Of a stretch of DNA of 64,000 bases, positions 2,888-24,513 are shown piece after piece; positions within the stretch are counted from its first letter, which is position 1; the number at the start of each line of letters is the position of its first letter. The translations under genes were made by a program, and so were the position numbers. The notes under the pieces are model-generated. The model ran no database searches and was not told the DNA's origin. It saw only the letters and a program-made list of their open reading frames with translations. The stretch comes from Candidatus Poseidoniaceae archaeon. GTDB taxonomy: Archaea; Thermoplasmatota; Poseidoniia; Poseidoniales; Poseidoniaceae. The stretch is taken from NCBI GenBank assembly GCA_938030705.1, contig CALHIR010000001.1, forward strand, positions 62,001 through 126,000, in the 5' to 3' direction.

Positions 2888-2941
2888 CGACGGTGAACTC
2901 AAAAAGTGGATTTTCCACGGTGTTTTGTGTCCGGCTCCATC

Positions 2942-3775
2942 ATGAACGTCGCCGGTTATCGTTTTGTTGACCTGAACGACAGGGATGAACTCCAAGCGAG
3001 GCTACGCAGCCTTTGCCTGGATGTTGGTCTCAAAGGGACGGTGCTGCTCGCTCCGGAGGGCATCAATTTTTTCCTGGCCGGACCTTCCACATCCATTGAT
3101 GCGTTCACGGTCATGCTGGGGGAGGACGAACGCTTTGCTGGTATTCCCCTCAAGGTCTCTTACACCGATTATCAACCGTTCAATCGCATGAACGTCCGGA
3201 AAAAGAACGAGATCATCTCGGTCGGTCTTGAGCACATTCGACCGTCGGACTTTACGGGAGAGGAGCTTGAGCCTCAAGCGTTCAAAGCCATGCTCGATGC
3301 TGGTGAACAGGTGCACGTGCTGGATACCCGCAACGACTACGAGTTGCGATTAGGGACCTTTGACAACGCCATCGACCTCAATATTCGGACTTTCAGAGCG
3401 TTTCCCGAGGCCATCCAACAACTTCCCGAGGCCATGAAGGATGAACCCATTGTCATGTTCTGCACCGGGGGCATCCGATGTGAGAAGGCCAGTGCCATCA
3501 TGATCGAAGCGGGCTTCACCAACGTGAAGCAACTCAAAGGCGGCGTTCTCGGGTACTTTGAGAACGTGGGCGGCGACCATTGGAACGGCGATTGTTTCGT
3601 CTTTGACCAGCGTGTTGCGGTGGACCCTTCGCTGAATGAAACCGAAGTGGTCGTGTGTTTTGCCTGCCGCGAACCGCTTTCCACCCAAGAGCAAGCCTCA
3701 CCCGATTATGTCGTGGGCGTTTCCTGCTCTTACTGCATTGATCGGGCTCAACTCGTGCCGTTCAACGACGAATGA
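2942..3775 (+). CDS. trhO: Rhodanese-family tRNA uridine(34) 5-hydroxylase (TrhO/YceA type)
   Basis: Members of this family hydroxylate U34 of tRNAs, the first step toward 5-(carboxy)methoxyuridine. The protein has the family N-terminal acylphosphatase-like domain (GTVLLAPEGINFFLAGP), a rhodanese domain with active loop CTGGIRCEKAS, and a C-terminal Cys-rich end with two CxxC-like pairs (CFAC, CSYC). The ATG at 2942 gives MNVAGYRFVDL, which aligns with the usual family beginning. A GTG at 2906 in the same frame would add 12 residues and cannot be excluded. The last 14 nt overlap the 3' end of the convergent gene on the minus strand. Use of oxygen as hydroxyl donor is family knowledge, not visible here. 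Confidence 0.9.
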   Translation: MNVAGYRFVDLNDRDELQARLRSLCLDVGLKGTVLLAPEGINFFLAGPSTSIDAFTVMLGEDERFAGIPLKVSYTDYQPFNRMNVRKKNEIISVGLEHIRPSDFTGEELEPQAFKAMLDAGEQVHVLDTRNDYELRLGTFDNAIDLNIRTFRAFPEAIQQLPEAMKDEPIVMFCTGGIRCEKASAIMIEAGFTNVKQLKGGVLGYFENVGGDHWNGDCFVFDQRVAVDPSLNETEVVVCFACREPLSTQEQASPDYVVGVSCSYCIDRAQLVPFNDE

Positions 3776-5891
3776 CCACCCAGTCATCCGACAGTTCACC
3801 ATGGCTCCATCGGTGCCATTCATGCCCGTGAACACCATCGTGTGCGATGAACCATGCTTGGGTCGGCGAAAGGATGAGTTCGCCATAGGTCAGCGCTTGA
3901 GATGAATTCCCGTTGCCCGTCCAAGGGTCGTAAGCCAAACGCATGGCCGTGCCCTCGACGGCCCACAGCACCACGCCTTGTGGTGTGCCGTTCACTGAAC
4001 CGCTTGACACCACGATCCAGCCGTCGCCAACCGGAGCCACGCCTCGGAGGTCCGATGACATCAGTCCGGGCGTGAGGTCGTGGAGCACTCGGCTCCCTTG
4101 TGGCGTCCCGTCGGTGATGCATGCCTCCATGCCATGGGTCGGTGTGAGGCAATCAAAGAGAAGCCGTTCACCGGTGTTGGCCACGCCGATGTGCGCTCCG
4201 GGCGATTGGAGGGTGCTGCTCAACTGGAGGCTGATACCGTTGGCTAGGTTGGTGGTCCACAGCCGTGCTTCGTTGGCGACGGTGACCGCATCGTAGACGA
4301 GGTTGTCCCCGATGAGCTGCAAGCCCATGTTTTCACCCAAGTGGGTGTCGCCTGAGGATGGGGCAATGGAGGTCAACCAAGCGTGGGTGCCGTTCTCGTA
4401 AAGGCGAACCACTTGCTTCACGCCACCTCGCACGCCCACAGCCAACGCATCGTTTTCGATGGAGAGGAGGTCTGAAAGTTGCGAGCTTCCAAAATCGTTG
4501 ATGGCCCACGAGGTCAAGACGCCGCTTGTACTCAATCGGTAGGGTTCGACATCTCCAGCCCCGTCTGCGGCGCTGAACCAAACCGCCCGTTCATCAGCGT
4601 GAATCCACGCCTGACCGATGTCGGTCAACATCGAGAGGTTCGCTTGGACGGCCTGCGATACCTCGGCGGTCCATGTGGGCAACGTCACGTTGTTTTGCAA
4701 CGCACTCCCGTTGGTCCAGACGAGTTGATTGGAGGTTGAGCGGAAGAGCAACCCCTCTCCCCACGGCAAGGGTTTCCAGGCCTCCACCGCTCCCAAAGCT
4801 TCGGTGCCTTCGGCCGTGCCGTCGGTCACCCACAGTTCACGGGGCCCTTGACCGTCGGTTGCGTCGAAAAAGAGCAATTCTCCATCTCCCAGCACGGAAA
4901 AGCCGAGGTCGCGACCCGGCAAAGCGTCGCCGTTTGGATGGAGGTCAACCAGCATGGTGGTGGTGTTGGCCTCCGGGTGATGAACGTGAAGTTCACAACC
5001 GTTGACGCCATCGTTCGCGGCGAAGAAAAAGCCCGAGATGGTGTTGGACCACACGGCCTCATCGCAGCCAGTGGTCATTGAATTGCCAACTCCGTTGAAC
5101 ACATCAGTTGCCCGTTCCGAGCGAAGCGGTTCAAAACAGAAATTCAGCGTCTCACGGACCTCGTTGAGTTCCAACACCCCGTTGTGGGCCTCGCCTTCAG
5201 CGGCGCCATCATCAACGCCAAAGCGGATCATAAACCCGTCAGCGCAAATGTAGGTTGGTGCAGTGACCTTGTCGACGAGGGCTGCCGCTCCAATCCTTCC
5301 GTCCGTTCCGTTGGTGCCGGGACGCCCATCATCACCAACAAGGCCGTTACAAACGACGGTTTGGTTGACCGTTTCCTCGGCGTCGAGGTTCTGGTTGAGG
5401 TTGAGGTCCAGTCCACTGTGCAGAACAAGCCCTCCTTCGGAACACGTGGCGTTGCCCACGGGAAGAACCGTCGTTTCCATGCGTTGAGGTACGGCATCCA
5501 TGCCGTTTTCACCGCGTTGGCCCTGAGGCCCAGAGAGGCCTTGCATGCCATTACAGACCACCACGGAGTCCATACGTTCGCCTACATCCAAAAGGCCGTT
5601 TCCGTCAACATCGAAACCGGTGTGGAGGCGAGATCCGCCTTCGTTACACGGGGCAAGAGGGCCGAACGGCTCAGTTTCAACCAGCCAGGGCGTGGCGAGT
5701 TGTTCTTCATGAGGCGCAACGATGAGGGCGTGGTTGTAGACAGCCAGGACCAAAACCACCACCAAGGTCAGGGTTTGAAGCACGGTGAACCAACGACGAT
5801 GGCGGTGGTTGGGTGGCTGTTCCTGTTCTTCGTGGCGTTCCTCATGTTCGGAATCATGTCCCGAATCCTCTTGGTTTGCAGATGTTTGCAT
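3762..5891 (-). CDS. Secreted or membrane-anchored ELWxxDGT-repeat protein with DUF7151/collagen-like modules
   Basis: A 709-residue protein with a charged Glu/His-rich N-terminus and one hydrophobic segment (about residues 36-54, VLQTLTLVVVLVLAVYNHAL), probably a signal anchor. Three Cys-containing modules follow in which a calcium-loop-like DVDGNGLLDVGE or LDLNLNQNLDAEE is followed by VCNG and short collagen-like Gly-x-y runs (GLSGPQGQRGENG; GDDGRPGTNGTDGRIG). This is the pattern of the DUF7151 family. The C-terminal two thirds carry ELWxxDGTxxGT repeats (RELWVTDGTAEGT, ACITDGTPQGS) expected to form a beta-propeller-like surface domain. It is transcribed divergently from the aconitase X gene and converges on trhO. 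Cell-surface location is inferred; ligand and role are unknown. Confidence 0.85.
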   Translation of the reverse strand: MQTSANQEDSGHDSEHEERHEEQEQPPNHRHRRWFTVLQTLTLVVVLVLAVYNHALIVAPHEEQLATPWLVETEPFGPLAPCNEGGSRLHTGFDVDGNGLLDVGERMDSVVVCNGMQGLSGPQGQRGENGMDAVPQRMETTVLPVGNATCSEGGLVLHSGLDLNLNQNLDAEETVNQTVVCNGLVGDDGRPGTNGTDGRIGAAALVDKVTAPTYICADGFMIRFGVDDGAAEGEAHNGVLELNEVRETLNFCFEPLRSERATDVFNGVGNSMTTGCDEAVWSNTISGFFFAANDGVNGCELHVHHPEANTTTMLVDLHPNGDALPGRDLGFSVLGDGELLFFDATDGQGPRELWVTDGTAEGTEALGAVEAWKPLPWGEGLLFRSTSNQLVWTNGSALQNNVTLPTWTAEVSQAVQANLSMLTDIGQAWIHADERAVWFSAADGAGDVEPYRLSTSGVLTSWAINDFGSSQLSDLLSIENDALAVGVRGGVKQVVRLYENGTHAWLTSIAPSSGDTHLGENMGLQLIGDNLVYDAVTVANEARLWTTNLANGISLQLSSTLQSPGAHIGVANTGERLLFDCLTPTHGMEACITDGTPQGSRVLHDLTPGLMSSDLRGVAPVGDGWIVVSSGSVNGTPQGVVLWAVEGTAMRLAYDPWTGNGNSSQALTYGELILSPTQAWFIAHDGVHGHEWHRWSHGELSDDWVVIRR

Positions 5892-10710: not shown

Positions 10711-11148
10711 ATGGTCGGCTCGCGTATGTCCCGTAAAGCGCGGCGCCACTTCAAGAAGATACAGCGGTCAGATAGCAAATATGGCCTTCAGGAAATCGCA
10801 AGTGCTATTCAAACCGACCTCGACAAGCGACACCTCAGTTATGACGAGGCCCTCATGTTGGGCAACATGATTCAAAACCGTGCGGACCAAGTTCCCGGGG
10901 ACGGTATCGTGTACGCCATTTCCGACCGGGATGCATACCGACGCACGCTTGAGCTCTACTTGCGAGACGCTCTCCTCACCCGAACAGAACAGTTGTTGCT
11001 TTGGGAAGAGCGACGGCGCTTGGGCATTTCCGACGGGGAACACGAAGCCCTCCTCAATCAACTTCTCGCTCAGTGGAAGCGACAAGGGAAGTCGGTCACC
11101 ATCGACCGATTTCAAAAACCCGACAGTGGAGGTGCCGGCCCTGTCTAA
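10711..11148 (+). CDS. Small basic helical protein of unknown function, first gene of the archaellum run
   Basis: I do not recognise this 145-residue protein. It is predicted to be soluble and almost all helical. The N-terminus is strongly basic (SRMSRKARRHFKKIQRS); the body has regular charged heptads (ALLTRTEQLLLWEERRRLG) and the last 15 residues look unstructured. The ATG at 10711 is preceded by AGAGGAGAGT, a purine-rich ribosome-binding stretch. The frame is open to a TTG at 10681, so a slightly longer form is possible. Its 3' end overlaps the start of the next, very large gene, so the two are translationally linked. A regulatory or nucleic-acid-binding role is possible from the basic N-terminus but is speculation. 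Confidence 0.65.
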   Translation: MVGSRMSRKARRHFKKIQRSDSKYGLQEIASAIQTDLDKRHLSYDEALMLGNMIQNRADQVPGDGIVYAISDRDAYRRTLELYLRDALLTRTEQLLLWEERRRLGISDGEHEALLNQLLAQWKRQGKSVTIDRFQKPDSGGAGPV

Positions 11149-14100
11149 GGCTGTTCTCCCCGTTTCTTTGGTCATGATCATGCTCATGGCTGGCCTCACG
11201 CCTTTGGCGGTGGCCGACCAGGGCCGTTCCACCCCCGATTTTATGGTCACCTCCTTCACGCTTGACGATGCAGGTTCCATGAACCTTGGCGGGGGTATTG
11301 AAGTCGAGGACGCCACGCACGTCGTTCGTGTCCAGGTCCAAAACACTGGTCTCGGCGCTGGACAAGCCACCTTGACCCTCCTCCTGCAGGGCACGGCGTC
11401 GTCCGGGGACGTGGTTCTGGACAGCACTGACCTCGGGGTCATCGGCGCTGGGCAATCAAGCGCAGTGACCATTTTTTCATGGTCAGCCACACTCGGAAAT
11501 AATCAGATTCTCAAGGCTCGTGTCAGTTCATCAGCCGACATCAACACCGGCAATAATGAAGACCAACTCATCGTCAACGTAAGTCGGTATCAAGACAGCA
11601 GCGTGCCAACTCATGACATTCCCACTCCTGCAGGAGGCGCCGGCAGTGTTGTCTGGTCGCCAACCGTCCAGGACTTCAACGTCAATGTTCGAAACGACGG
11701 CGTGAAAAACCAGTCCGCTACCTTTTACCTCAATTTCACCGAGGTCGGCAACCCCGCCAACACCTTCAGCACACAGTCCGAGATTTTGGGCATCGTTCGC
11801 CCCGGCTCTCTGTATGCTGGTGGTGCTACACCCTCTCCTGTGAACATGCAATTTGATGCAACCTCACTTTCGGGTCAGTACGACGTTATCGGGGAGATGC
11901 ACACGGTTGGTATCGGCTGGTCAAAATCGATTGAATTCCTCAATCAAACGGTTGTATTCTCCTCGTTTGATTTTGACTTGACTGCTGCTCACGATCGGAG
12001 TGTAGAGCCCGGTCAAACATCCCAACTGACTTATTCGGTCAAAAACACCGGCGTTAGCGTCGACAGTTACGCCATATCCGCCACCGGCGTCAGTGGCTGG
12101 ATTAGTTCGGTTTCGCCCGCAGCATCAACGCCGACCGCCATGCCGGGCGATACACGGTATGTTTCGGTTTACGTCACTGTTCCAGCGACGGCCCTGCGAA
12201 CCGAATCGGAGGTCGTGACCTTCACGCTAACATCCTCCAACGATAATCAAATTGTGAAAACCGTCACCACGACGGTTCTTGCCAGCGAATCCTACGATGT
12301 TAGCGTTGAAATGGACGCCGATACGAAGGACCTCACGCCGGGCCTCCCCTTCCCGCTTCAGGTGAAGGTGACCAATGAAGGCAATGCAGACTCGGTGTTC
12401 TTGCTCTCGAGCGGAATTTCCTCGAACCCGTTGAACTGGGAGCTTGAATTCTCAAGCACCTACACGGGTACATTGAACCCGGGCCAATCCGTCAATGTCA
12501 CGCTTACGGCTACGCCCCCCGTGATCAAGAACCCCTTGGTTGAGGCCGAATACAACGGACACGGCGATACCCTCTCCGTCTGGGCTCAAGCCGTTTCTGT
12601 TGATGGTGGCGTTCCGAAAGTAGACTCAACGCCCGTTCAGATTCTTCCCGTCATCGTGGTCGACCCTGGCTTGCCCACCAACAGCATAGACATGACGGCG
12701 GAACAGGTGCTCCTCGCTCAGCAGGGTCAGGGGCTGCAGGAAATTTTGGACTTGGATGTTGAAGTTCGACACAACCTCATCACCGAACTCAGCGAAACGG
12801 TGGACACGACGCTGTCCCTTGGCACGCCTGTCTTCACCTCCGATTCTTCAGGCGGCTTCGACGAAGCCTCACGGTGGGCTATCGGCCTGACGCCTACCTC
12901 GCTCCCAAACATGAACTTGGGTGAGGTGGCCCATGCCGTCATGACCATTCAAGGCCCAGCGGACAATTTTTCCGTCGCCGGCTCCCTGAGTATCCCGCTC
13001 ACCGCAACACCCTCGCTAAGTGCGGCCCACAGCAGTTCCAACGTGATACCAACCGCCATCACCCAGACGTTAACCATCAATGTCCCGCCGGTGTTGGGCG
13101 CCGTAGGCCACAACGGGACCGTCCTTGATGCCATGGTGGGGGAGGAGACCTCCTACGACATTGACTTGGCGAACACGGGCAACAACATGACATCCTACCG
13201 ACTTGTTCTCAGCGATGTACCCGACGGATGGGACGTTTCGTTCTCAACGTCGTCCATCATGCCGTCAACGACCGTCATTGATGTGCCAGCGGATGTAGCG
13301 AATTACCCCTCCAACGTCTCGGACCATATTGCGACGTTCCCGTTCGTGGTCACGACCGAACCGAACGCTCCAGCGAACAGCATCGAAACCATCTCAATTG
13401 AGGTTCAAGAAATGAATTCAGGCGCCTTCATCACGACGTTTGAGGTTCCTATCCAGGTGGGTGAGAAGGTCAACGCAACGCTCTCCCCTTCAAGTCAAAC
13501 GGTGAACATGTCCATTGGGGATACCATCACCACCAGCGTGATCATCAGCAACGACGGGAACACCCCCGCTCAGTTTGCGGTCTATCTTGACACGTCCAAT
13601 GCCGGAGAGATCGATTATGTTCTCGAAACCCCCAGCGTCGTTCAAATCGGTGCTGGCTATGAATCAACGGTTCGGGTTCGTTTGACACCAAGTTCGGATG
13701 CCCTGGCCGCTGCCAACTACTACGCAACCGTTTGGGTTTCGAACGCCGCTTCGGGGCTCAACCTTTCGGCTGATATCTTAGCCAACATCAGCGAACAACA
13801 CGGAGTGGTGTTGAGCACCCTCGATGAAATCGGCGTCGTTCCCGGTGAAACGCAGACCGTTGATTTCTCGCTCATCAACAACGGGAATCTCGTTGAGAAC
13901 ATCGTCATTGAAACCAGCGTGGTCGACAATTGGAGCGTGACCCCCGCCAGTCTGCCGCTGACCCTCGGCGTGGGGGATTCGTACAGCGGTTCCTTTGACG
14001 TTGATGTTCCGGCCTTGGGTGACGATGACAGCATGCTTAACGGCGCCATTTACGCGGTAACGATGCGGGTCCTGAACGCCTCCACCCAAAATGAGTTGGA

Positions 14101-16045
14101 AGTCCACCGCTTCAATTTCATCGTCGCCCCCCTGTTCATCGTCGAAGTCGAAGAATGGCCAACGACCATGGATTATCACCGAGGTATCAGCCGCACGTGG
14201 GATGTCTCTTTCATCAACACAGGAAATAAGGACGTTGAGGTGAACATTACCTATTCGCTTTTCCAGGCCGGTTTAACCACTCCCAGCACCGATTGGGAAA
14301 TCTCATCCACTGCGCCTTCCTCCATTTTGCTTCGTCGCGGTGTCGCTGAAAATTTGGTCTTCACCATCCGCAGCGTTGCTATCCAACCTCCACTCACGCT
14401 CGCAGCCAACCTCGTAGTTGCACTCGACCCGAAGGAAGAAACGGTTCAGGGAAGCGCAGAATACTACACCGAACTTCGGATGAATCGCTTCTTTGAACAA
14501 GGCGACACGGCCGTCACTCCACCAGCGGACAACGGGGAACAGACCTTCCCCATCACGTACTCTCACATTCCAACCGGCCCTGAAAGCGCCGTCGCTTACG
14601 AGTTGGAACTTTGCCGTGCTGAGCGTCTTTTGGATGTTGGCGACCTTGGCCAAAACGCCTCGTTTTACGAGTGGTCATTCGCCGTGCGAGTCAACAACAT
14701 CGATTACCCGCTGAACATGTCGGCTTACTGTGGTTCCACCTCGCTTGGGGCCGACTCCCGAATCACGTTGCCCAGTCGGCAACCATGGGTCACCAGCGAC
14801 CCAATCCAGCTCATCATCGATGCCCCTGATACCCCTCACATCCTTTCTGGCGACGGTTGGGATTTGACCTTCCGACTCTACCATCCAGACGAGAACAGTG
14901 GCTACAGTGTGTTTGAGGAAGACACCTTCACCTACAAACTGGCCGTCTTTGCCAACCCTGCGATCATCGCTCAGGGGCCGGAAAACGCCGATGCTTTCCT
15001 CGAAGGGGTTGAGACGACCTACTCCGTCGTCGTTCGCAATCTCGGCACCGCCCAAGCCCTCGGTGTTTCTGCGGCGTTGGATTGTCATGGGGATGTTGAC
15101 ATCTTGAGCACGCCCGAAATGCACCCTCTCCTGGGCTCTTCCGAGGAACACACCTTCACATGGAGCGTGAAGCCGGCGACCATCGATTGGTGGGAAGTTG
15201 ACAAAGACATTCTTTGCGATGCCTCACTCTCCTACCTTTACATCGGCCCCGGGAACGATGAAAGTAACGATAATTCTGCAACGCTCCGAGAGTCGGGCCA
15301 AGAGTTTGGGCAAGAAACTGTTCAATCGTGGTCCCCTGACCTCTCGGTAGCGTTCATCGCTTGTGTGGTCGCAGCGTTGCTCTCCCTCATCTTTACGCGA
15401 CTCTCGAGCCAATCAGAAAAGTGGCAACTCGGCGGCGTTTACGCAGGCGTCTTGGCCTTTGGGTTTGCTTTCCATCTCTTCACCGTCCAGTACTGGGGTC
15501 CCGCCGTGTTGGCGCTGTGTGCGCTGTGGATCTGGCGCATGACCTGGAAGAGCAGCGACGAATTCCGCCTCATTCACGAAGACTACCAGCGTGCTCGCAA
15601 GGGCATCTCTACGGTCTACTCTGACCACTTTGAGGCGCTCAAAGATAGCCGTCGGCAGCTCACCATCATTCTCTCGCTTCCTGTTTTGGGAATGCTCGCC
15701 ATCGTTCTTGGTCTGCCGCCGCAATTGTCCACAGATGGTGACAACCTTCTGGTCATGGCGTCGTATTTCTTCATCATCATGGTGGGCGTTTGGTACCTGC
15801 TGAAGCGCTCGGACAAGATGTACGGCAACCTCTACGGTCGCATGACCGATGCGGAGATCAAGTCCATCCGTATTGAACGGGACCTTGGCGACCCAGCCCG
15901 TCTCCTGAATGACCTTGCTGATGACGGACTTGATTTCACGGCCATCCTCGGCGAAGAGGCTTCTGAGCCAGAAGACGATGCCAGCAAGCAGCCGGCTGCC
16001 GATCTGGATTTCTCAACATCTTCGGAGGTGGAAAGCGATGCCTGA
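11132..16045 (+). CDS. Very large Ig-repeat (CARDB/NEW3-like) membrane protein upstream of the archaellum genes
   Basis: About 1637 residues. A signal peptide (PALSKAVLPVSLVMIMLMAG, Ala-x-Ala-like end AVADQG) is followed by some 1370 residues of repeated beta-sandwich modules. These show the NEW3/CARDB signatures of long unstructured-linker Ig domains (VQNTGLGAGQATLT, VKNTGVSVDSYAIS, LANTGNNMTSYRL, FINTGNKDVEVN). About four to five membrane helices follow (residues about 1403-1425, 1436-1468, 1509-1528, 1538-1557), then an acidic cytoplasmic tail of 80 residues. The start is a GTG at 11132 (another at 11126); both overlap the upstream gene. The next gene overlaps the stop by 8 nt. Role unknown; the operon position suggests a surface component linked to the archaellum or its anchoring. 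Confidence 0.85.
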   Translation: MPALSKAVLPVSLVMIMLMAGLTPLAVADQGRSTPDFMVTSFTLDDAGSMNLGGGIEVEDATHVVRVQVQNTGLGAGQATLTLLLQGTASSGDVVLDSTDLGVIGAGQSSAVTIFSWSATLGNNQILKARVSSSADINTGNNEDQLIVNVSRYQDSSVPTHDIPTPAGGAGSVVWSPTVQDFNVNVRNDGVKNQSATFYLNFTEVGNPANTFSTQSEILGIVRPGSLYAGGATPSPVNMQFDATSLSGQYDVIGEMHTVGIGWSKSIEFLNQTVVFSSFDFDLTAAHDRSVEPGQTSQLTYSVKNTGVSVDSYAISATGVSGWISSVSPAASTPTAMPGDTRYVSVYVTVPATALRTESEVVTFTLTSSNDNQIVKTVTTTVLASESYDVSVEMDADTKDLTPGLPFPLQVKVTNEGNADSVFLLSSGISSNPLNWELEFSSTYTGTLNPGQSVNVTLTATPPVIKNPLVEAEYNGHGDTLSVWAQAVSVDGGVPKVDSTPVQILPVIVVDPGLPTNSIDMTAEQVLLAQQGQGLQEILDLDVEVRHNLITELSETVDTTLSLGTPVFTSDSSGGFDEASRWAIGLTPTSLPNMNLGEVAHAVMTIQGPADNFSVAGSLSIPLTATPSLSAAHSSSNVIPTAITQTLTINVPPVLGAVGHNGTVLDAMVGEETSYDIDLANTGNNMTSYRLVLSDVPDGWDVSFSTSSIMPSTTVIDVPADVANYPSNVSDHIATFPFVVTTEPNAPANSIETISIEVQEMNSGAFITTFEVPIQVGEKVNATLSPSSQTVNMSIGDTITTSVIISNDGNTPAQFAVYLDTSNAGEIDYVLETPSVVQIGAGYESTVRVRLTPSSDALAAANYYATVWVSNAASGLNLSADILANISEQHGVVLSTLDEIGVVPGETQTVDFSLINNGNLVENIVIETSVVDNWSVTPASLPLTLGVGDSYSGSFDVDVPALGDDDSMLNGAIYAVTMRVLNASTQNELEVHRFNFIVAPLFIVEVEEWPTTMDYHRGISRTWDVSFINTGNKDVEVNITYSLFQAGLTTPSTDWEISSTAPSSILLRRGVAENLVFTIRSVAIQPPLTLAANLVVALDPKEETVQGSAEYYTELRMNRFFEQGDTAVTPPADNGEQTFPITYSHIPTGPESAVAYELELCRAERLLDVGDLGQNASFYEWSFAVRVNNIDYPLNMSAYCGSTSLGADSRITLPSRQPWVTSDPIQLIIDAPDTPHILSGDGWDLTFRLYHPDENSGYSVFEEDTFTYKLAVFANPAIIAQGPENADAFLEGVETTYSVVVRNLGTAQALGVSAALDCHGDVDILSTPEMHPLLGSSEEHTFTWSVKPATIDWWEVDKDILCDASLSYLYIGPGNDESNDNSATLRESGQEFGQETVQSWSPDLSVAFIACVVAALLSLIFTRLSSQSEKWQLGGVYAGVLAFGFAFHLFTVQYWGPAVLALCALWIWRMTWKSSDEFRLIHEDYQRARKGISTVYSDHFEALKDSRRQLTIILSLPVLGMLAIVLGLPPQLSTDGDNLLVMASYFFIIMVGVWYLLKRSDKMYGNLYGRMTDAEIKSIRIERDLGDPARLLNDLADDGLDFTAILGEEASEPEDDASKQPAADLDFSTSSEVESDA

Positions 16046-16985
16046 AGACGGAATGGACGTTCCCGAAGACATCATGCGAGAGGAGCGAGCACTGCGAGAG
16101 CAAGGCATCCGTGAGGCATCTCAGACCTTGGAACGCATCGCCCGACAGGCGGCCAAGCGGGAGAACCCCTCTTTGGCAGAGACAGACATGGATTTGGGTG
16201 AAGTCAAAGTGCACTTGAACTTGCACCAACTCGGCAAGGCCAAGAAAACGCTGAAGCGAGCAGAACGTACCCTCGAGGAATTGGAAGAGGATGTCCTCCA
16301 TCTCCGACGCAGCATCGCCATGCTGCATCGCCTTTTGGTTCACAAGCACATCACCCTCGAGGAAGCCGAACGTATTCTTTACAAGTTGAGAGAGGCCACC
16401 GCTGCCGCCGAAATTGGTGATATTCGTGCATCCACCGACGAAGTTGAGGATTTGCTCGAGGATATGATCGGCGGCAACACCTCGACGCTCAATCCCTTCT
16501 TGTTCCGTCATTTCTGGATGGGCGTGGACACGCGATGGCCAGCCGGAGGTGAATCCGGCGTCTTGCTCGTACGCATCATCAATGACGGGCCCATCCCCAT
16601 GCCAATGCTCCGGTTGAAACCACCCGTCCCCGAAGGTTGGACGGCCAATCCGCCCAACGTGGATTTGCCCATCATTGCCCCGGGTGGAAACATCCCCCTT
16701 CGGTTTGACATTCAGCCTGATTTCCGCCTTTCATCGGAAGACATCCCGCTCACTCGTAAACTCTCGGTCGCCACATCCTATGAAATGCGCTCGGGTGAAA
16801 TCACCGTCACCATGCGTGTACAAAACCGGTCAATGGAACCCCTTTCCGAAGTCCTTCTCACACCTTGGATTCCTTCTGGATTCTCCACGGATGAAGTACC
16901 GTTCATCCGCAATCTCGCTCCTGACGAAGTGGCTGTCATTCGCATGCCGCTTCGCATCAACCTCGGTCAAGGAGGTGCTCTTTGA
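16038..16985 (+). CDS. Coiled-coil plus Ig-like protein of unknown function, before the archaellins
   Basis: A 315-residue protein with no signal peptide and no membrane helix. Residues about 10-150 are highly charged helix with coiled-coil character (KKTLKRAERTLEELEEDVLH; EEAERILYKLREATAAAEIG). Residues about 165-315 form two beta-sandwich-like units resembling the NEW3 modules of the preceding giant protein (RIINDGPIPMPMLRLKPPVP; VQNRSMEPLSEVLL). The ATG at 16038 is preceded by GGAGGTGG with good spacing and overlaps the upstream stop, so the longer frame from 15909 is not the protein. A cytoplasmic Ig-like fold is unusual and may bind the cytoplasmic tail of its neighbour or the motor. No family was recognised. 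Confidence 0.75.
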   Translation: MPEDGMDVPEDIMREERALREQGIREASQTLERIARQAAKRENPSLAETDMDLGEVKVHLNLHQLGKAKKTLKRAERTLEELEEDVLHLRRSIAMLHRLLVHKHITLEEAERILYKLREATAAAEIGDIRASTDEVEDLLEDMIGGNTSTLNPFLFRHFWMGVDTRWPAGGESGVLLVRIINDGPIPMPMLRLKPPVPEGWTANPPNVDLPIIAPGGNIPLRFDIQPDFRLSSEDIPLTRKLSVATSYEMRSGEITVTMRVQNRSMEPLSEVLLTPWIPSGFSTDEVPFIRNLAPDEVAVIRMPLRINLGQGGAL

Positions 16986-17000
16986 CCGCATCACGTTCCA

Positions 17001-17014
17001 CCCGCAGAGGCGGG
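17001..17014 (+). other. Small GC hairpin before the first archaellin
   Basis: CCCGC and GCGGG form a 5-bp stem around an AGAG loop in the 44-nt gap between the coiled-coil gene and the first archaellin. It is followed by more G residues and an A-tract just before the ATG at 17030. It could be an RNA processing or stability element; it could also be chance. Confidence 0.35.
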
Positions 17015-17029
17015 GGATAAACAAAAAAA

Positions 17030-17602
17030 ATGGTGAAAAATATGAAAAACGAAAGAAAGAACGAACAAAGCGACAACGTCGCTGCGATCGGTATTGGTGC
17101 AATGATTGTGTTCATTGCCTTGATTCTGGTTGCCGCGGTGGCAGCAGCTGTCATTATTCAGACGGCGGAAAAACTGCAACAGAACGCACAGACCACGGGT
17201 GAGGATACAACTGACATGATGGCATCGAAGATTACCGTCAAGTCGGTGGTCATCACCAACACGAACAACCTGTACGTGACCTTCGAGCTAGCTCCTGGCT
17301 CGGATCCGGTCACGGCCACGACCATTCAGTGGTTGATCACGTGTGACATCGGTGCCAACGGTGCTACGGACACTGGCGACTTCGCCACTGTCGGCACGGC
17401 CACCGCTGCCTCTGATCTTGCGGGTAGCGTGCAGGGCACAATCTCGCCCGGTGAGACATACACCGTGGAACTAGACCCTGCAACCTGCGTGCCAACCGCA
17501 AACGCACAACACACGCTCAACGTCCAGTCCGGAACCGGAGGTTTCACCTACGAAGTTTTGAACTACGGCGGCGGCATTACTGACGGCGAGGTGGTCATTT
17601 GA
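17030..17602 (+). CDS. arlB: Archaellin (flagellin) 1
   Basis: Structural subunit of the archaellum filament. The 190-residue preprotein has the archaellin/class III signal pattern: a short polar N-terminus ([12 protein letters not shown]) followed by [20 protein letters not shown], the hydrophobic helix that packs in the filament core, then TAEKLQQ. The rest is a beta-rich outer domain with Asn/Thr-rich segments. Alignment with the usual [20 protein letters not shown] places the cleavage after Ala, with Val and Asn before it rather than the usual Lys/Arg-Gly. The ATG at 17030 is taken; the one at 17042 is also possible. The second archaellin gene starts within the stop codon region. Confidence 0.93.
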
Positions 17603-18201
17603 AGACCAACGTCCACACCGACTCCATGAAGGAGGACAAGATTGCAGCCATCGGTATTGGTGCCATGATTGTCTTCATCGCTCTGATTTTGGTCGCAGCC
17701 GTTGCTGCAGCTGTCATCATTCAGACCGCTGAGAAACTCCAACAGAACGCCCAGACCGCAGGTGATGACACCGCTGACGAAATGAGCGGGAAGATCATGA
17801 TCAACTCTGCGTATGTTGGGACGGGTTCCGCCACTGCGCAGGCCGATGAATTCCATCTTCTCGTTCGTCTTGCACCGGGCAGCGACCCAACACCTCCCGA
17901 TTCCATTACCTACCAGTTGTTCTGTGCTAACGGTATCGTCGAGGGTGAGTTGGCCAACGGTGATGTCCATTTGATGGAGACCGAGACCGACCTTGGTGTA
18001 AATGACAATCTCGATGTTGGGGTTGGCTACATCGTCTACATCGATGGTGATGACGGGGCCTCCGATTGCGGCCCTTCTGCTGTCGATGGAAGCGGTGACC
18101 CAATCACCACGTTCCAGTTGTACCTGCACGTCTTGAACGGCGGTACAACCTACGAGACATTGACCGTTGATGACACCGCTGCAGGCGCCCTTGTGGTTTG
18201 A
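17599..18201 (+). CDS. arlB: Archaellin (flagellin) 2
   Basis: Second archaellin, 200 residues from the TTG at 17599. The TTG overlaps the upstream stop by 4 nt (TTGA) and has GCGAGGTGG about 6 nt upstream; an ATG at 17626 lacks such a site and would leave only six residues before the hydrophobic core. Residues [20 protein letters not shown] and the continuation through NAQT are identical to archaellin 1 for 38 residues, while the codons differ widely and the C-terminal domains differ. This points to an old duplication with strong constraint on the filament core. The pre-cleavage residues are Lys-Ile-Ala rather than Lys-Gly. The two archaellins may form different filament segments. Confidence 0.93.
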
Positions 18202-18245: not shown

Positions 18246-19103
18246 ATGGCATGGCCATTTAGTGGAAACTCGGGTGGAAACAAAAGTGCAGACCAATCTT
18301 TGAGCGAAGAGCGCCTGAAAATTTTGGCCAACGTGGCCATAGAACAGGTGCCGTTCCCTGAACAGGGAATGCTCACGGAGGAGGATGCATGGACCATTTC
18401 CCCCGGGCCAACACGTGCTCGGATCAACAGCCAACAGAGCGTTCCCAACGTGGCGGCTTCGATTGCACCTGCCCCTACGCACGTGCCAACAGCCCCTGCG
18501 ACGGTTGACACCTCCGGCCTTGAGCGTCTCATCAGCAGCCGCCTCGACATGGTTGAAGATGTCTTACGTATGGTGGAACACCGCCTCGAAGAGGGCGTGT
18601 CTGTCAATGCAGAGGCTGGCACTGAAGGCGAGAGTCACGAGAGCGATGTATTCGACGTTGACGCTGACAGCGCTACCGGCGACCGCATCATCACCGCCAG
18701 CGGTGAAGTGGTGGAAGTCGGCGGTTCAACCCGTATGATGGAAGACGACCAGGGTCAACTGGTTGAGTTGTACGAGGCGCAAGCCTTGGCGGCCAACCCC
18801 TTCCTCGTCGCTCCGCGCTCAAGCGGGTCCGGCAACCAAACCAGTACAGGTGCACCAACGGTTGCAGCCTTGCTCCTCGACCACATGTCTGGCATGGCTG
18901 CCGTGAGTTTCACGCAGAAGGCCATGGAATCAGGCATGCTCTCGCAGGAGGAAGGTGACGCCGTTCTTGCCATCGTTCAGTTGGCAGAGCCCGGCGACCC
19001 GGAAACGGCGCTTGAAGACCACCTGCCGCATCGACAACTGTTGGTGTTCTCGGCGTTGGTCTCGTCCTGGCGACAGCTCCACATCCTTCGAGGTGAAGAG
19101 TGA
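18246..19103 (+). CDS. ArlC/D/E-like archaellum motor-switch protein
   Basis: A 285-residue soluble protein in the position where euryarchaeal clusters carry arlC, arlD or arlE. The N-terminal 100 residues are variable and Pro/Ala-rich. A helical segment follows (ERLISSRLDMVEDVLRMVEH), as in ArlC/E. The C-terminal part (about 165-280) is helical, with NPFLVAPR, TVAALLLDHMSGMAAVSFTQ and a Trp near the end (VSSWRQLHILRGEE). This resembles the ArlD/E domain that binds the motor ring with ArlH and ArlI and receives chemotaxis signals through CheF. The assignment rests mainly on position and general shape. The start at 18246 follows GGAGGTTATCAC. Confidence 0.65.
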   Translation: MAWPFSGNSGGNKSADQSLSEERLKILANVAIEQVPFPEQGMLTEEDAWTISPGPTRARINSQQSVPNVAASIAPAPTHVPTAPATVDTSGLERLISSRLDMVEDVLRMVEHRLEEGVSVNAEAGTEGESHESDVFDVDADSATGDRIITASGEVVEVGGSTRMMEDDQGQLVELYEAQALAANPFLVAPRSSGSGNQTSTGAPTVAALLLDHMSGMAAVSFTQKAMESGMLSQEEGDAVLAIVQLAEPGDPETALEDHLPHRQLLVFSALVSSWRQLHILRGEE

Positions 19104-19104
19104 C

Positions 19105-19749
19105 ATGGGTGCTTCGGTTGGTGTAGGTGGACTTATCATCGGCATTTCGATGCTGGTGGTGTTCTCCATGGCCCATCAGGCCATTTCGCTGCAAATCGAA
19201 TCCGGCGTTGACCGGATTGAAGGTGCAGACGAACCCACACCGACCTTTACCATCGACGACGCGGTGATGTTTACGGGCGCCATCGTGAATGTCACTATTG
19301 TGGACGGCGGCTCTAACTACAGCAGCGGAGGCACGATTGAAGCCTCCAGCGGAAACGGCGGATTTTCTGCAACCTACACGATCAACGGCACGGGAGCCAT
19401 TACCTCCGTGGTGGTCACCAGCCACGGAAATTATTCCTCGCTCCCGACCTTGGTCGTGAACGGTGGCGGAACGCCAACGTCCCCTGCCAACCTGGCCGCT
19501 GTACAAGGCAACGTGCTCTACGCCAACATGACCAACACGGGCCCCACCACCATCGCTCATGATGATGTTTGGATGTTCCTTGACGGTCAGAATGCTACCC
19601 GGTTTTCAAGTGTGTACAATCCACCGCTGACCAATTTGTGGTTCTCCGGCGAGACGCTGTTCCTGAACTGGTTTGACACCGGTCTTCCCGGCGATGAACG
19701 AATGACGCTCGCGGTGGGCCCAACCACCGTAGGACACGGGTTGTGGTGA
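19105..19749 (+). CDS. arlF: ArlF-like archaellum stator protein with an inserted adhesin-type repeat
   Basis: ArlF and ArlG are pseudoperiplasmic stator proteins held by one N-terminal helix. This 214-residue protein begins MGASVGVGGLIIGISMLVVF, which matches the ArlF N-terminus. Residues about 133-214 hold the expected beta-sandwich with a NMTNTGPTTIAHDDVWMFLDG segment typical of ArlF. Between them, residues about 60-123 form a unit not expected in ArlF: DGGSNYSSGG, then GNGGFSATYTINGTGAITSV, then GNYSSLPTLVVNGGG. This is the GG-x-G/N-Y repeat common in bacterial and phage surface proteins. The ATG at 19105 was chosen over the open frame from 18955, which overlaps the previous gene. Confidence 0.8.
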   Translation: MGASVGVGGLIIGISMLVVFSMAHQAISLQIESGVDRIEGADEPTPTFTIDDAVMFTGAIVNVTIVDGGSNYSSGGTIEASSGNGGFSATYTINGTGAITSVVVTSHGNYSSLPTLVVNGGGTPTSPANLAAVQGNVLYANMTNTGPTTIAHDDVWMFLDGQNATRFSSVYNPPLTNLWFSGETLFLNWFDTGLPGDERMTLAVGPTTVGHGLW

Positions 19750-19753
19750 TGGC

Positions 19754-20245
19754 ATGGCGGACGGAGGTGCATCTTCGATGATCATGCTGGTCACAGCCCT
19801 CCTGGTCTCAGGAGGAGCGGGGGCCGTTCTTGTCTCCGAGTGGAGCGACGCCGTCCGGTTGGTGCAAGTCAACGAACGAGCAACATCAGACGCAGACCAT
19901 GTGAGTGTTGCCTTGGCCGGTGATCCGGCCATGGTCGCTCACAACACGACCGCCAACACCATCATGTTGTACTTCCTTAACACGGGCAAGTACGAGTTAA
20001 ACACCACGAACTACCAGGTGCTGATCAACGGTGCCATACCAACCTCAAGCACGGAAAGCGTGCTCCCGAGCGGAAACGACTGGAACAGCGGTGACCTCCT
20101 TGAGGTGGTCTTGACCAACACATCGTGGTCGTTCTCTGACGGCGAAGACATTTCGGTGTACTTTATTGGCGTATCCGAGCCCGTGAGCGGTCACACCCAT
20201 TCAGCCACAACCAATGCGGAGGTGAGACTGAATGCTTTCGCCTGA
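19754..20245 (+). CDS. arlG: ArlG archaellum stator protein
   Basis: A 163-residue protein with the ArlG N-terminal signature: MADGGASSMIMLVTALLVSG leads a single membrane helix, and then a short linker leads into a beta-sandwich (TTANTIMLYFLNTGKYELNT; ISVYFIGVSE). ArlG forms filaments capped by ArlF and fixes the motor to the cell envelope. The ATG lies 4 nt after the arlF stop and the 3' end overlaps arlH by 14 nt, so translation is coupled. The size is normal for the family. Confidence 0.87.
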   Translation: MADGGASSMIMLVTALLVSGGAGAVLVSEWSDAVRLVQVNERATSDADHVSVALAGDPAMVAHNTTANTIMLYFLNTGKYELNTTNYQVLINGAIPTSSTESVLPSGNDWNSGDLLEVVLTNTSWSFSDGEDISVYFIGVSEPVSGHTHSATTNAEVRLNAFA

Positions 20246-20969
20246 TGAAAATCCCTTCATGACGGCTCACAAACCCGTCGAAGACGGTTTCCCCTTTGAG
20301 GTGGAAACGGATTCACTCGCCGACTCGATGGGGCTACGATTGCCCAACCGTTCCCTCTACCTGCTTCAAGGAAAGGTCGGTGCCGGTAAATCACTCATCG
20401 CTCAGCGCCTCATTCATGGCATGGTGGAGAACGGTGTCAAGGTGCTCGTCATCACCACCGAACTGACCACTCGTGGCTGGATTGAACAAATGGAGAGCAT
20501 CGGCTACGGCATGACCGACGCCATACGCGAAGGTCGCGTCATGGTCCTCAGTCGATACGGTACCGTAGCGGATGCCCGACAGGACGTCTCTCTCCAAGAA
20601 GTCCTCAGCAGCCCAGCCATTCCTGCGGCCGACGTCATCGTCCTCGACTCTGCGAGTTCGTTGATGCCCGAAGGCGGGACGAAAGCCGACCATTACAGCC
20701 TCATACAGCAATTCAGGAAACTCGCCTCTGATGGCCGTTCGTTCATGTTGTGTGCCGACCCTGAAGAAATGGACCACTCCTTGCTCCACACCCTACGGGC
20801 TTCGGCTGAAGTGGTGTTGGACTTGGAAAATGCCATGATCGGTGGAGAGATCAAGCGAAACATCGTCGTCACACGCTTCCTTCGTGCTGCAGGTCCGATT
20901 CAAACATCGGTCGGATGGCGTGTTGAGCCCGGAATGGGCTTCATCGTTGACATCACGGCGGTGAGCTGA
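20232..20969 (+). CDS. arlH: ArlH, KaiC-like ATP-binding archaellum regulator
   Basis: RecA/KaiC-fold protein that forms a ring under ArlI and controls archaellum assembly and rotation. The 245-residue sequence has Walker A GKVGAGKS at about residues 46-53, a following Glu-Leu (TTELTTRGW) and Walker B VIVLDSASSL at about 135-144. The remainder matches ArlH in length. The first ATG (20232) follows GGAGGTGAGACTGA and overlaps the arlG end; a second ATG at 20259 is possible. It sits between arlG and arlI as in other euryarchaeal clusters. Confidence 0.93.
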   Translation: MLSPDENPFMTAHKPVEDGFPFEVETDSLADSMGLRLPNRSLYLLQGKVGAGKSLIAQRLIHGMVENGVKVLVITTELTTRGWIEQMESIGYGMTDAIREGRVMVLSRYGTVADARQDVSLQEVLSSPAIPAADVIVLDSASSLMPEGGTKADHYSLIQQFRKLASDGRSFMLCADPEEMDHSLLHTLRASAEVVLDLENAMIGGEIKRNIVVTRFLRAAGPIQTSVGWRVEPGMGFIVDITAVS

Positions 20970-20982
20970 CGGAGGAAACGAC

Positions 20983-22698
20983 ATGGCCGAAGAACCACGA
21001 TTTGCAAAAGGCGACCTCAACGGCGTCATGGCGGCCTATCCCCACGTTGCTGAATGGGTTCGAGATTTCGAAATGCGCTACGGGTCTCGCCCTATCTATT
21101 ACGGTCCGCTTGACCGCGACGCCAAGAAACAACGGCCACTCAACCTCATCTACGTCACCCGTGAACCCATTTTCGTTCACATCTACGAGCCACCGGCTGA
21201 CGACGAGGGCGGAGGAACCGTCCTCTGGTTTGGATTGGAGCCTCAACTGACAGAAGAAGAAGAAAACATTCGGCGTGAACTGGTGGAAACTTTGTTGCAA
21301 GAAGCACCATCTGCTCCTTCGTTCACCACAGACAACGAGTTTGAGAACATCCTTCAGCAAATGATTGAACGATACACGGTCCTTGACACCGAAGCCAACA
21401 GCATGGTGCGTCGCCAAGGTCGTTTGTGGGAAATGGTGGGTATGGACGACAAACGGCTGACCGTCACCCAAGCTCAACGAGAACGCCTCAACTATGTTGT
21501 GATTCGCGACTTGATTCGGAACGGCCCGCTCGAACCCCTGCTTTCTGATGAGATGTTGGAAGATATCCACTCGGTTGGGCTCAAGCACATCCACATGGAC
21601 CACAAAGTGTTCGGCATGGTCACCTCGAACATTCGTTTCCGTGAGCGGGAATTGCTCTCTCGCTACCTTCGGGCGATGTCGGAACGTATCGGTCGCCCGG
21701 TTTCAGACAACAAGCCGATCATTGACGGTGTACTGCTTGACGGTTCCCGTATCAACATCATTTTCTCCGACGACGTCTCGATGCTCGGGCCGTCGTTCAC
21801 CATCCGTAAGTTCGCCGAAGAAACCATCTCGGTCATTCAACTCATCAAATGGGGCACCATGTCGGCGCAACAGGCCGCTTACATCTGGATCTGTCTCGAA
21901 TACGGCATGTCCGTCCTCGTGTCTGGAGAAACGGCATCAGGAAAGACCACGACCCTCAACGCGATTCTTCCGTTCATCGACCACAACGTGAAAATTTACT
22001 CCGCTGAAGACACGCCCGAAGTGAAAGTACGCCACAAAATCTGGCAACGCCTCGTCACTCGCGACGCGAAGAACGAAGATTCTCGTGTTGAAATGTTTGA
22101 CTTACTCAAAGCAGCGTTGCGTAGTCGTCCTCGCTACATCATCATCGGTGAGATTCGTGGTGTTGAAGGCGCCACAGCGTTCCAAGCCATGCAAACCGGT
22201 CACCCGGTCATCGCAACCTTCCACGCCTCCTCCATCGTCAAAATGATTCAGCGATTCACCGGCGACCCAATCAACGTCCCGATTCGGTTCTTTGACAACC
22301 TCAACTTCGCCATTTTCCAAGAAGTGGTGGAAGCACCAGGTGGCGGTATTGCCCGCCGTATCACCGGTATTGACGAAGTCATCGGGTACAACAAACACAG
22401 CGACGGTGTGCTGACACGTGGCATGTTCGAGTGGGACCCCGTCAAAGACAAGCATTACTTCCGTGGTATGTTCCAATCCCATCTGCTGGAGAACAAGATT
22501 GCGGCCATGGCAGGGTTTGCCAACAAGCGCGACATTTACGACGAAATGCTGCGCCGTGCTGACGCCATCCAACGCATGGCCGATAGGGACTTGACCCATT
22601 ATGACGATGTGTTCGATCTTCTGGGCCTTTACTATTCCAACGGTTGGGACCACTTTAGCCGAGCCATCGACACATGGACTGGCGTCAACCACAACTGA
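20983..22698 (+). CDS. arlI: ArlI, archaellum assembly and rotation ATPase
   Basis: Hexameric type II/IV secretion-type ATPase that powers both filament assembly and rotation at the inner face of the membrane. The 571-residue product has the family layout. The N-terminal domain contains VRDFEMRYGSRPIYYGPLDR; Walker A is SGETASGKTT at about residues 313-322; the Asp box region is AEDTPEVKV; Walker B is YIIIGEIRGVE; the His box is MQTGHPVIATFHASS. The length agrees with known ArlI proteins. ATG at 20983, 13 nt after arlH and with GGAGGAAACGAC upstream; arlJ follows 12 nt after the stop. Confidence 0.97.
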   Translation: MAEEPRFAKGDLNGVMAAYPHVAEWVRDFEMRYGSRPIYYGPLDRDAKKQRPLNLIYVTREPIFVHIYEPPADDEGGGTVLWFGLEPQLTEEEENIRRELVETLLQEAPSAPSFTTDNEFENILQQMIERYTVLDTEANSMVRRQGRLWEMVGMDDKRLTVTQAQRERLNYVVIRDLIRNGPLEPLLSDEMLEDIHSVGLKHIHMDHKVFGMVTSNIRFRERELLSRYLRAMSERIGRPVSDNKPIIDGVLLDGSRINIIFSDDVSMLGPSFTIRKFAEETISVIQLIKWGTMSAQQAAYIWICLEYGMSVLVSGETASGKTTTLNAILPFIDHNVKIYSAEDTPEVKVRHKIWQRLVTRDAKNEDSRVEMFDLLKAALRSRPRYIIIGEIRGVEGATAFQAMQTGHPVIATFHASSIVKMIQRFTGDPINVPIRFFDNLNFAIFQEVVEAPGGGIARRITGIDEVIGYNKHSDGVLTRGMFEWDPVKDKHYFRGMFQSHLLENKIAAMAGFANKRDIYDEMLRRADAIQRMADRDLTHYDDVFDLLGLYYSNGWDHFSRAIDTWTGVNHN

Positions 22699-22710
22699 GG
22701 ATGATGAGAC

Positions 22711-24513
22711 ATGGAGCGCATGCCGATTTGGCAAATTGCCCTTCGTCGTCTTGAGATGCCGGTTCCACGATTTATTTCCTTGTACGTCGCACCCATCGTG
22801 GCGGCGAGCTTTCTGATTTCTATCGTCATCGTCTTTCTAACAGGCGGTCTCGCAGAGGGGGCTTTGTTTTCAGGAATCACCGGTATCTTGTTCATTCTAA
22901 TGATCACGCTGATGTCTGCGGTCGCCGCCGTGGCCTTCCCGATTCTCGATGTCCAACGCTCGGCGACTTTGATCGAGGAAGAGATGCACATGTTCATCAC
23001 ACGAATGGGTATTCTCTCCATCGGTGAGGTCGGCGCTCAATCCATCTTTGACATCCTCAAACAAATGAGAGATTACGGTGAATTGGCCTCAGAAGTCCAG
23101 CGAATTGAGACCTTGGTCGAAAAATGGCACACGTCGCTCCCGGAGGCAGCACGGATTGTCGCCCAACAAAGTCCAAGCCCCCTTTGGTCAGATTTCCTTG
23201 ACCGGATGGCGTTCTCCATTGAGGCGGGGCAACCCATCGATGAATTCATGCGCTCTGAACAAGAAACCGTCGCCGAGCAATACAACACGCTCTACGACAC
23301 ACGCCTTGAGTCCGTGGACACGCTGAAGGAAATTTATGTTTCAATGAACACAGCCGGTCTGTTCGGTTTGGTCATTGCTGGCATCCACCTCGTGTTGTTT
23401 GAGGTTGGTAGCGATGCCGACACGCCGATTGAAGTTGCGAGTCGCCTTCGTTTTCTTCTGCTCGCATCCCTCCTTTTCGTGTTTATTCAACTCGGGGGCG
23501 TTTTCGCCTTCCGGGCCACCATTCCAAAAGACGCCACCTTCGCACGGGACGAAATGGATACGCCGTTCCGGATTAATTTCAGACGGTCACTTCTCCTCTC
23601 TGGCGCGATTACGGCAGGGCTGTTGGTCTTGGCCACGTTTACTTTGATTTGGACATGGGAACTCATCACCACGCAATGGGACAAGTACGGTTTGCTCTTT
23701 ATCGCCATCCCCTTCTCACCTTTGCTTGTACCCGCTTTCATGGTTCGTCGTGAAGAGACACAAATCCAACGTCGAGACGAGACCTATCCTGATTTCATTC
23801 GGGCCCTCGGTGGAACGGCTCAGGCACGGTCTTCCGAACCCTCAGCAACCATCAAAGCCCTACGAGGTATTGATTTTGGTATGCTCGACAATTCCATCGA
23901 CCGTCTCGAAAAACGGTTGTCAACCCGTATTGATTCCGACCGTGCTTGGGACTACTTTACCGCCGACACAAACTCGGCTGTTATTTCCCGCTACACCCGC
24001 ATTTACATCGAAGGGTCCCAATCCTCCGGTCAGCCAGCAGGAACCGCCGAAATGGTCTCTCGAAGCGTCGGAAACTTGCTCTCGTTGAGAAATCGTCGTT
24101 CGCTTTCGGCGAACACCATGTGGGGTGTAGCGCTTGGATTACTGATTTCCAGCGTTGCGTCGTTGAACGTCACCACCGCCATCGTGCTTCAATTGGGTGA
24201 GGCCATCGCCGGTGTTGCTTCAGGTTTGGTTGAGACCGACGTTGGTACGCTCTCCGAATTTTCAGGAGGGATTGCCTTGCCGGTGATGGAAGATGCTTCG
24301 TCGGTCGACGATAACATTCGGATGTTCAAGATCATCATTTCCCTCTTGATTTTGATGCAAGTCATCACGGTCTCTTCCATCGCCACTCGACTTCGTGGCG
24401 GTACGCGCACATCGGCTATCGGCCAGATGATTCAACTGACATGGATTGCAGGGTTGGCCTCGTTGTTTACTGCCATCATCCTTGAACAATCAAGCAGCAT
24501 TTTCAGCGTTTAA
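22711..24513 (+). CDS. arlJ: ArlJ, polytopic archaellum platform protein
   Basis: Membrane platform that ArlI acts on during archaellum assembly. The 600-residue protein has two type II secretion F-like cytoplasmic domains (around residues 90-200 and 345-430; QSIFDILKQMRDYGELASEV and YPDFIRALGGTAQARSSEP). They are separated by groups of membrane helices: two near the N-terminus, two to four in the middle (FGLVIAGIHLVLFEVG, LLLASLLFVFIQLGGVFAFR) and several at the end. ArlJ of other archaea has the same design and length. It is the last recognised gene of the archaellum run. No prepilin peptidase gene follows, so that enzyme must be encoded elsewhere. Confidence 0.95.
   Translation: MERMPIWQIALRRLEMPVPRFISLYVAPIVAASFLISIVIVFLTGGLAEGALFSGITGILFILMITLMSAVAAVAFPILDVQRSATLIEEEMHMFITRMGILSIGEVGAQSIFDILKQMRDYGELASEVQRIETLVEKWHTSLPEAARIVAQQSPSPLWSDFLDRMAFSIEAGQPIDEFMRSEQETVAEQYNTLYDTRLESVDTLKEIYVSMNTAGLFGLVIAGIHLVLFEVGSDADTPIEVASRLRFLLLASLLFVFIQLGGVFAFRATIPKDATFARDEMDTPFRINFRRSLLLSGAITAGLLVLATFTLIWTWELITTQWDKYGLLFIAIPFSPLLVPAFMVRREETQIQRRDETYPDFIRALGGTAQARSSEPSATIKALRGIDFGMLDNSIDRLEKRLSTRIDSDRAWDYFTADTNSAVISRYTRIYIEGSQSSGQPAGTAEMVSRSVGNLLSLRNRRSLSANTMWGVALGLLISSVASLNVTTAIVLQLGEAIAGVASGLVETDVGTLSEFSGGIALPVMEDASSVDDNIRMFKIIISLLILMQVITVSSIATRLRGGTRTSAIGQMIQLTWIAGLASLFTAIILEQSSSIFSV

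Follow-up and report, generated by a model that had tools for sequence, protein, structure and literature searches.

A giant Ig-repeat membrane protein and a predicted cytoplasmic Ig protein encoded at the head of archaellum operons in Poseidoniales and two further Thermoplasmatota families

Do three unrecognised, overlapping genes at the head of an archaellum operon belong to that operon, and what might their products do there? The question is raised by the window analysed here, a stretch of 64,000 nucleotides from the 2.0-Mb metagenome-assembled genome (MAG) of a Candidatus Poseidoniaceae archaeon (G000). An earlier note on this DNA had read the genes as a lineage-specific, three-gene block that could anchor the motor in an unusual envelope. 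We compared the locus with other Thermoplasmatota genomes, searched its products against protein family and structure databases and predicted their architecture.

The head of the archaellum operon

The three ORFs overlap head-to-tail on one strand and continue into the archaellins, an arlC/D/E-like gene and arlF to arlJ. The features of the locus are as follows.

10711..11148, + strand: gene 1, a basic, all-helical protein of 145 aa (ATG at 10711, stop at 11148)
11126..16045, + strand: gene 2 (the giant), a secreted Ig-repeat protein with five C-terminal transmembrane (TM) helices
14714..16042, + strand: C-terminal region diagnostic of the giant (final Ig domains with an invariant Cys pair, five TM helices, loop, tail)
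16038..16985, + strand: gene 3 (the third), 315 aa, an N-terminal helical bundle followed by tandem Ig domains, with neither signal peptide nor TM helix (ATG at 16038)
16997..17017, + strand: short hairpin between the third gene and archaellin 1
17030..17602, + strand: archaellin 1
17599..18201, + strand: archaellin 2
18246..19103, + strand: divergent ArlC/D/E candidate, 285 aa, proposed from its position and a weak LYEAQ...NPF motif
19105..19749, + strand: ArlF-like protein, longer than other Thermoplasmatota ArlF (weak NCBIfam match)
19754..24513, + strand: arlG, arlH, arlI and arlJ (NCBIfam)

The host system is an archaellum operon, with archaellins, ArlH, ArlI and ArlJ encoded together; NCBIfam models identified ArlG, ArlH, ArlI and ArlJ, and ArlF weakly. 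The same search gave no match for genes 1, 2 or 3. Both the run of overlapping genes straight into the archaellins and the statement that none of them is a known Arl component, as the earlier note had it, were thus borne out. A Pfam search assigned Ig domains of the NEW3 (PF10633, 5e-19) and CARDB (8e-12) families to the giant, genes 1 and 3 had no match above the cut-off, and a PHROGs search returned no match. The giant likely starts at GTG 11126 or 11132 and ends at 16045, which gives about 1,637-1,639 aa and an overlap with gene 1 of about 17-23 nt. The ATG of the third gene lies inside the end of the giant, with an overlap of 8 nt in the window. Because the ORFs are open, conserved and syntenic across the two Poseidoniales families and, for the giant and the third, across two more of the Thermoplasmatota, they are real genes, and chance ORFs or mis-called frames were ruled out.

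The hairpin at 16997-17017 (CCACCC...GGGGG) is present in most of the Poseidoniaceae-like loci looked at, with varying stems, and overlaps a Shine-Dalgarno-like GGAGG in some of them; it is a minor feature with a possible role in expression control. The window ArlF has about 214 aa, compared with about 140 aa in family f11, and carries an apparent Gly/Asn/Ser-rich insertion that could give ArlF a different binding partner. The 285-aa gene is conserved, and its motif recalls ArlD/E (LYDLISANINPF). Its product had no database match and no significant profile match, and is probably a very diverged ArlC/D/E.

Predicted architecture of the giant and the third protein

The giant has a signal peptide, an ectodomain of about 1,400 aa made of NEW3/CARDB-type Ig domains (roughly 13 by length) and a C-terminus with five TM helices, a cytoplasmic loop between TM3 and TM4 and a helical C-terminal tail. 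Both the loop (EF..IHEDYQRARKG) and the tail are conserved, and the loop charges fit an ectodomain outside and a tail inside. In the predicted structure of the C-terminus (pLDDT 73), Ig domains are followed by long helices compatible with five TM segments. The giant ectodomain has about double the sequon density of the third protein (1.7 vs 0.9 per 100 aa), which is weakly consistent with the former lying outside and the latter inside. With PF10633 and PF07705 above cut-off in a secreted protein, the giant belongs among the NEW3/CARDB multi-Ig surface proteins. It does not have the single anchor of an adhesin, since it ends in five TM helices in Poseidoniales and in families f11 and f28. The full-length protein is single copy, with a length in Poseidoniales of 1,569-1,732 aa (SD 49, n=25); in f11 and f28 it has about 1,500 aa, again with a signal peptide.

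The third protein is predicted (mean pLDDT 78) to consist of five helices followed by two beta-sandwich domains. No TM-like or hydrophobic segment was found among 26 homologues (maximum 19-residue hydropathy 1.48). The picture drawn earlier, of an extracellular Ig stalk with membrane helices and a cytoplasmic tail for the giant and of similar Ig modules with no signal for the third, therefore agrees with the signal peptide, five TM helices and loop charges of the former and with the tandem beta-sandwiches and missing signal peptide of the latter. Fold searches against the PDB gave generic Ig, adaptin-ear, transglutaminase-barrel and helical matches with low Z, and foldseek matches included Ig domains of integrins and fibrillar adhesins. 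A sequence search against the PDB found only a lacto-N-biosidase Ig domain (E 9e-5).

The third protein was also considered as a diverged ArlC/D/E, for which there was no profile support (hhalign Prob 0.2 against ArlD/E, with shallow profiles); the f11 and f28 operons encode a separate ArlD/E besides the third. Third-like tandem-Ig proteins of 385 aa that have neither the helical N-terminus nor arl neighbours occur in family f25 (L091:1198-2352, L092:7295-8449). The f25 loci opened for third-like or giant-like matches contained no five-TM giant and no arl neighbours.

Distribution of the three genes

Among 126 Poseidoniales genomes, ArlJ (E<1e-20) was found in 73, the third in 74 and the giant C-terminus in 75, with ArlJ and the third together in 69. 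In five genomes the third occurred but ArlJ did not; four of them have further arl genes on the contig that carries the third (L078-L081), and the fifth, G082, is a possible exception; arl genes lie beside the block in G007, G015, G035 and G055. ArlJ occurred with neither giant nor third in two genomes (G045, G116), where the contig is broken inside the operon and the archaellin is missing too. G013 has a 4-kb arl fragment. Every apparent exception that we opened is a contig break inside the operon. Contigs of Poseidoniales MAGs often break at the duplicated archaellin genes, so that arl operons look incomplete or split.

By genus, the block was present in at least 13/14 archaellated and 0/7 non-archaellated genera (Fisher p 7e-5, a naive value that ignores phylogeny). 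Neither giant nor third was found in the genera that lack ArlJ (g11, g12, g15, g16, g17, g19, g21), nor was an archaellin in the members tested. Forty regions were opened, and wherever a contig spans the operon the order is constant across both families: gene 1 (if present), giant, third, archaellin(s), 285-aa gene, F, G, H, I, J. Counted from the stop of the giant, the third begins at -8 in most loci, and the remaining loci range from -4 to +1. All genera of family f1 and about half of those of family f2 are archaellated, which matches the pattern published for Poseidoniaceae and Thalassarchaeaceae (PMC6461757); f1 and f2 appear to correspond to these two families. In published MGII trees some archaellated MGIIb subclades branch at the base and others elsewhere (PMC6336850), a pattern suggestive of repeated loss. 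The giant and third thus occur with arl, are absent where arl is absent and keep a conserved neighbourhood, as expected of an archaellum-dedicated accessory. The earlier note had named the presence of the block without archaella, or its location elsewhere in most relatives, as evidence against its reading. Neither was found across the 126 genomes, and the overlaps, the constant synteny and the joint presence and absence with arl all speak for tight coupling to the archaellum.

Gene 1 is strongly conserved (mean column identity 65%) and restricted to archaellated Poseidoniales, namely most f1 genomes and the f2 genera g14 and g18. It was not found in the archaellated Thalassarchaeaceae-like genera g13 and g20, nor beside the giant/third pair in f11 and f28. 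The block is therefore not generally one of three genes, as had been proposed, and gene 1 is a peripheral, Poseidoniales-specific member. Its helical-hairpin part (residues 70-120; window 10918-11070) recurs in proteins of about 350 aa elsewhere in Poseidoniales genomes and in other Thermoplasmatota. In g14 an additional ORF of 1,067 aa lies between gene 1 and the giant. The giant is flanked in Thalassarchaeaceae-like genera by a protein that carries an N-terminal TM helix and a 'GxxRIL' motif and is divergent in g13, g18 and g20. The flanking or inserted ORFs of these loci are L057:1074-1943 and 2349-5549, L058:15671-16876, L059:2116-3360 and L055:3589-4362.

For a wider view, ArlJ was located in 243 Thermoplasmatota genomes and arl clusters were read from about 30 families. 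The profile of the third gave matches in two f11 genomes, adjoining the archaellin. Giant and third stand at the operon head in f11 (L094, L115, L143, L144) and f28 (L130), in the order giant, third, archaellin, ArlD/E, F, G, H, I, J. Profile-profile comparison with Poseidoniales supports an ancient homology of both proteins, with E 4e-10 over 255 columns for the third and E 5e-8 over 190 columns for the giant C-terminus. A block specific to the order, the 'lineage-specific' scaffold of the earlier note, was consequently rejected for these two genes and retained for gene 1. The MAGs that bear the pair are labelled Thermoplasmatales, Candidatus Thermoplasmatota or Thermoplasmata, with isolate names CSMAG_*, Zod_Metabat.* and AUK266, from which we infer seep and spring lineages. 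The pair is absent from most other archaellated Thermoplasmatota families surveyed, and none was found in the arl clusters read far enough upstream in f8, f16, f24, f27, f30, f34 and f37.

In an ArlI tree, f11 and f28 form a supported clade (100/99), which Poseidoniales join in a larger group (92/85). A single origin of the pair is not proven, because this group also includes families with no detected pair; a single old origin followed by losses or by extreme divergence would account for its history, and so would transfer. In f16, f34, f21, f31 and f32, two ArlI matches lie side by side or fused within one arl cluster (L105, L107-L110, L122, L123, L127), the two copies falling in separate clades of the tree.

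One f28 genome, G173, has two arl clusters (L129, L130). The cluster on contig C117 has the pair and no che genes; that on C14 lacks the pair and has CheW matches between arlH and arlI (a 163-aa ORF and an antisense 671-aa ORF). In tetranucleotide composition both contigs agree with the remainder of the MAG (r 0.96 and 0.97, against 0.52-0.64 for unrelated genomes), which speaks against contamination as the source of the two archaella, a close strain being possible. If the two archaella of G173 hold, the pair tracks archaellum type and not envelope type. No giant/third pair was found in the arl cluster assigned to Thermoplasma volcanium. We take G204 to be this species and G156 to be Aciduliprofundum boonei. 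T. volcanium swims without an S-layer (PMC12448462). Because swimming Thermoplasmatales that have no S-layer also have no such pair, it is no general substitute for that layer, and neither this case nor G173, with one archaellum of each kind, supports the proposed link to an envelope that lacks an S-layer. The giant is itself disfavoured as an S-layer protein, as non-archaellated genera do not have it.

Possible functions and known systems

The giant and the third protein are very probably dedicated to the archaellum. Gene order, co-occurrence and predicted topology suggest an anchor or scaffold, a role to which we give even odds. The two would form a dedicated accessory complex of one Thermoplasmatota archaellum class. 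Five TM helices would place the giant around or beside the ArlJ platform, and its Ig ectodomain, tens of nm if extended, might form a stalk or collar that enters the cell-surface layer and passes through it. On the inner side, the loop and tail of the giant may be the binding site of the third protein, and the latter, by its helical bundle and its tandem Ig domains, would connect with the motor from the cytoplasm (ArlC/D/E ring, ArlH/I). As a static scaffold, such a pair would fasten the non-rotating parts to the envelope and complement ArlF/ArlG; gene 1 would be a later Poseidoniales addition, probably a cytoplasmic helper. A bolder reading goes further, and we give it a probability of about one third: a second envelope anchor, made of a giant Ig stalk, a five-helix base and a cytoplasmic Ig adaptor, would define a distinct archaellum class in Poseidoniales and seep/spring Thermoplasmatota and provide torque anchoring or a motor collar that replaces or adds to the ArlF-S-layer contact. 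ArlF/ArlG are kept alongside the pair, so an extra anchor is not strictly required.

A less likely but serious alternative is that the giant, expressed along with the archaellum, is an adhesin for attachment to particles or a sensor of surfaces, with the third as its cytoplasmic adaptor; the pair would then link surface contact to the use of the filament and would not anchor torque. Rinke et al. reported chemotaxis genes to be missing from Poseidoniales and argued that their archaella serve adhesion (PMC6461757). In agreement with this, CheW was not found in 17 genomes other than G173, including all Poseidoniales (8/8) and f11 (5/5) genomes tested, and CARDB/NEW3 Ig arrays are common in surface proteins, like the integrin and fibrillar-adhesin domains matched by foldseek. 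However, the near-constant length of the giant is unlike that of a variable-repeat adhesin, five TM helices and a cytoplasmic partner would be unusual, and the pair also occurs in seep/spring lineages, strictly at the operon head beside the archaellin. Strict linkage to arl, constant length, a multi-pass base and a partner in the cytoplasm make a structural accessory more likely than an adhesin.

The pair might also act in assembly or control of the archaellum, as a chaperone, a gate or a switch that stands in for chemotaxis input, but such a non-structural part seems improbable. The conserved loop of the giant and the conserved third protein would suit it, as would G173, where CheW accompanies only the cluster without the pair. 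Yet Thermoplasma- and Aciduliprofundum-like genomes lack both CheW and the pair, so that the pair is not required to take the place of chemotaxis, and an ectodomain of 1,400 aa is large for a regulator. That envelope genes merely adjoin arl in a streamlined genome is very improbable: these MAGs are compact and gene 1 is variable, but the pair is lost together with arl and keeps its overlap, and the same neighbourhood recurs in distant families.

Recent papers pose the question of how ArlF/ArlG hold the archaellum in cells where the usual S-layer is absent or has not been identified (PMC12448462, PMC13319060), and it is disputed whether the archaella of Poseidoniales, which are abundant in the sea, rotate or only attach (PMC6461757, PMC6336850). 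An envelope-spanning, operon-encoded pair that occurs only with the archaellum offers concrete proteins on which both questions can be tested. The pair also marks an archaellum subclass common to Poseidoniales, seep and spring lineages.

Syntenic, unannotated orthologues stand beside FlaHIJ and flagellins in the MGII motility operon of Tully 2019 (PMC6336850, Fig. 4), and the conserved hypotheticals there almost certainly include these genes; they are drawn there without interpretation, and the text does not go into their domain architecture or co-occurrence, names no homologues beyond MGII and proposes no function. In the literature searched, which covered few subscription papers, the pair of giant and third was not found described.

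Like the giant, the stator proteins ArlF and ArlG are extracellular, Ig-fold and arl-operon-encoded, and a role in linking the motor with the surface layer has been proposed for them (PMC12448462, PMC13319060). They are, however, archaellin paralogues of about 140-170 aa with one N-terminal helix, and are also present here as separate genes. The giant is about ten times longer, multi-Ig and multi-TM, and neither it nor the third matched the ArlF or ArlG model of NCBIfam. ArlX and the ArlC-ArlD-ArlE ring resemble the third as cytoplasmic helical proteins encoded in arl operons. ArlX is membrane-tethered, unlike the third and its homologues, and the third differs from the ring proteins in its tandem Ig domains and in standing beside a separate ArlD/E or divergent candidate in the same operon. 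Archaeal NEW3/CARDB surface proteins share the ectodomain Ig families of the giant (PF10633, PF07705), but typically have variable length and one TM helix or sorting signal at the end, in contrast to its five TM helices, cytoplasmic tail, single copy and arl linkage. The PilN/PilO-LysM alignment scaffold of the Litorilinea archaellum (PMC13319060) is likewise a proposed extra scaffold beyond ArlF/ArlG in an unusual envelope; that envelope is bacterial and the scaffold is proposed from type IV pilus genes, whereas the giant is built of Ig repeats and five TM helices.
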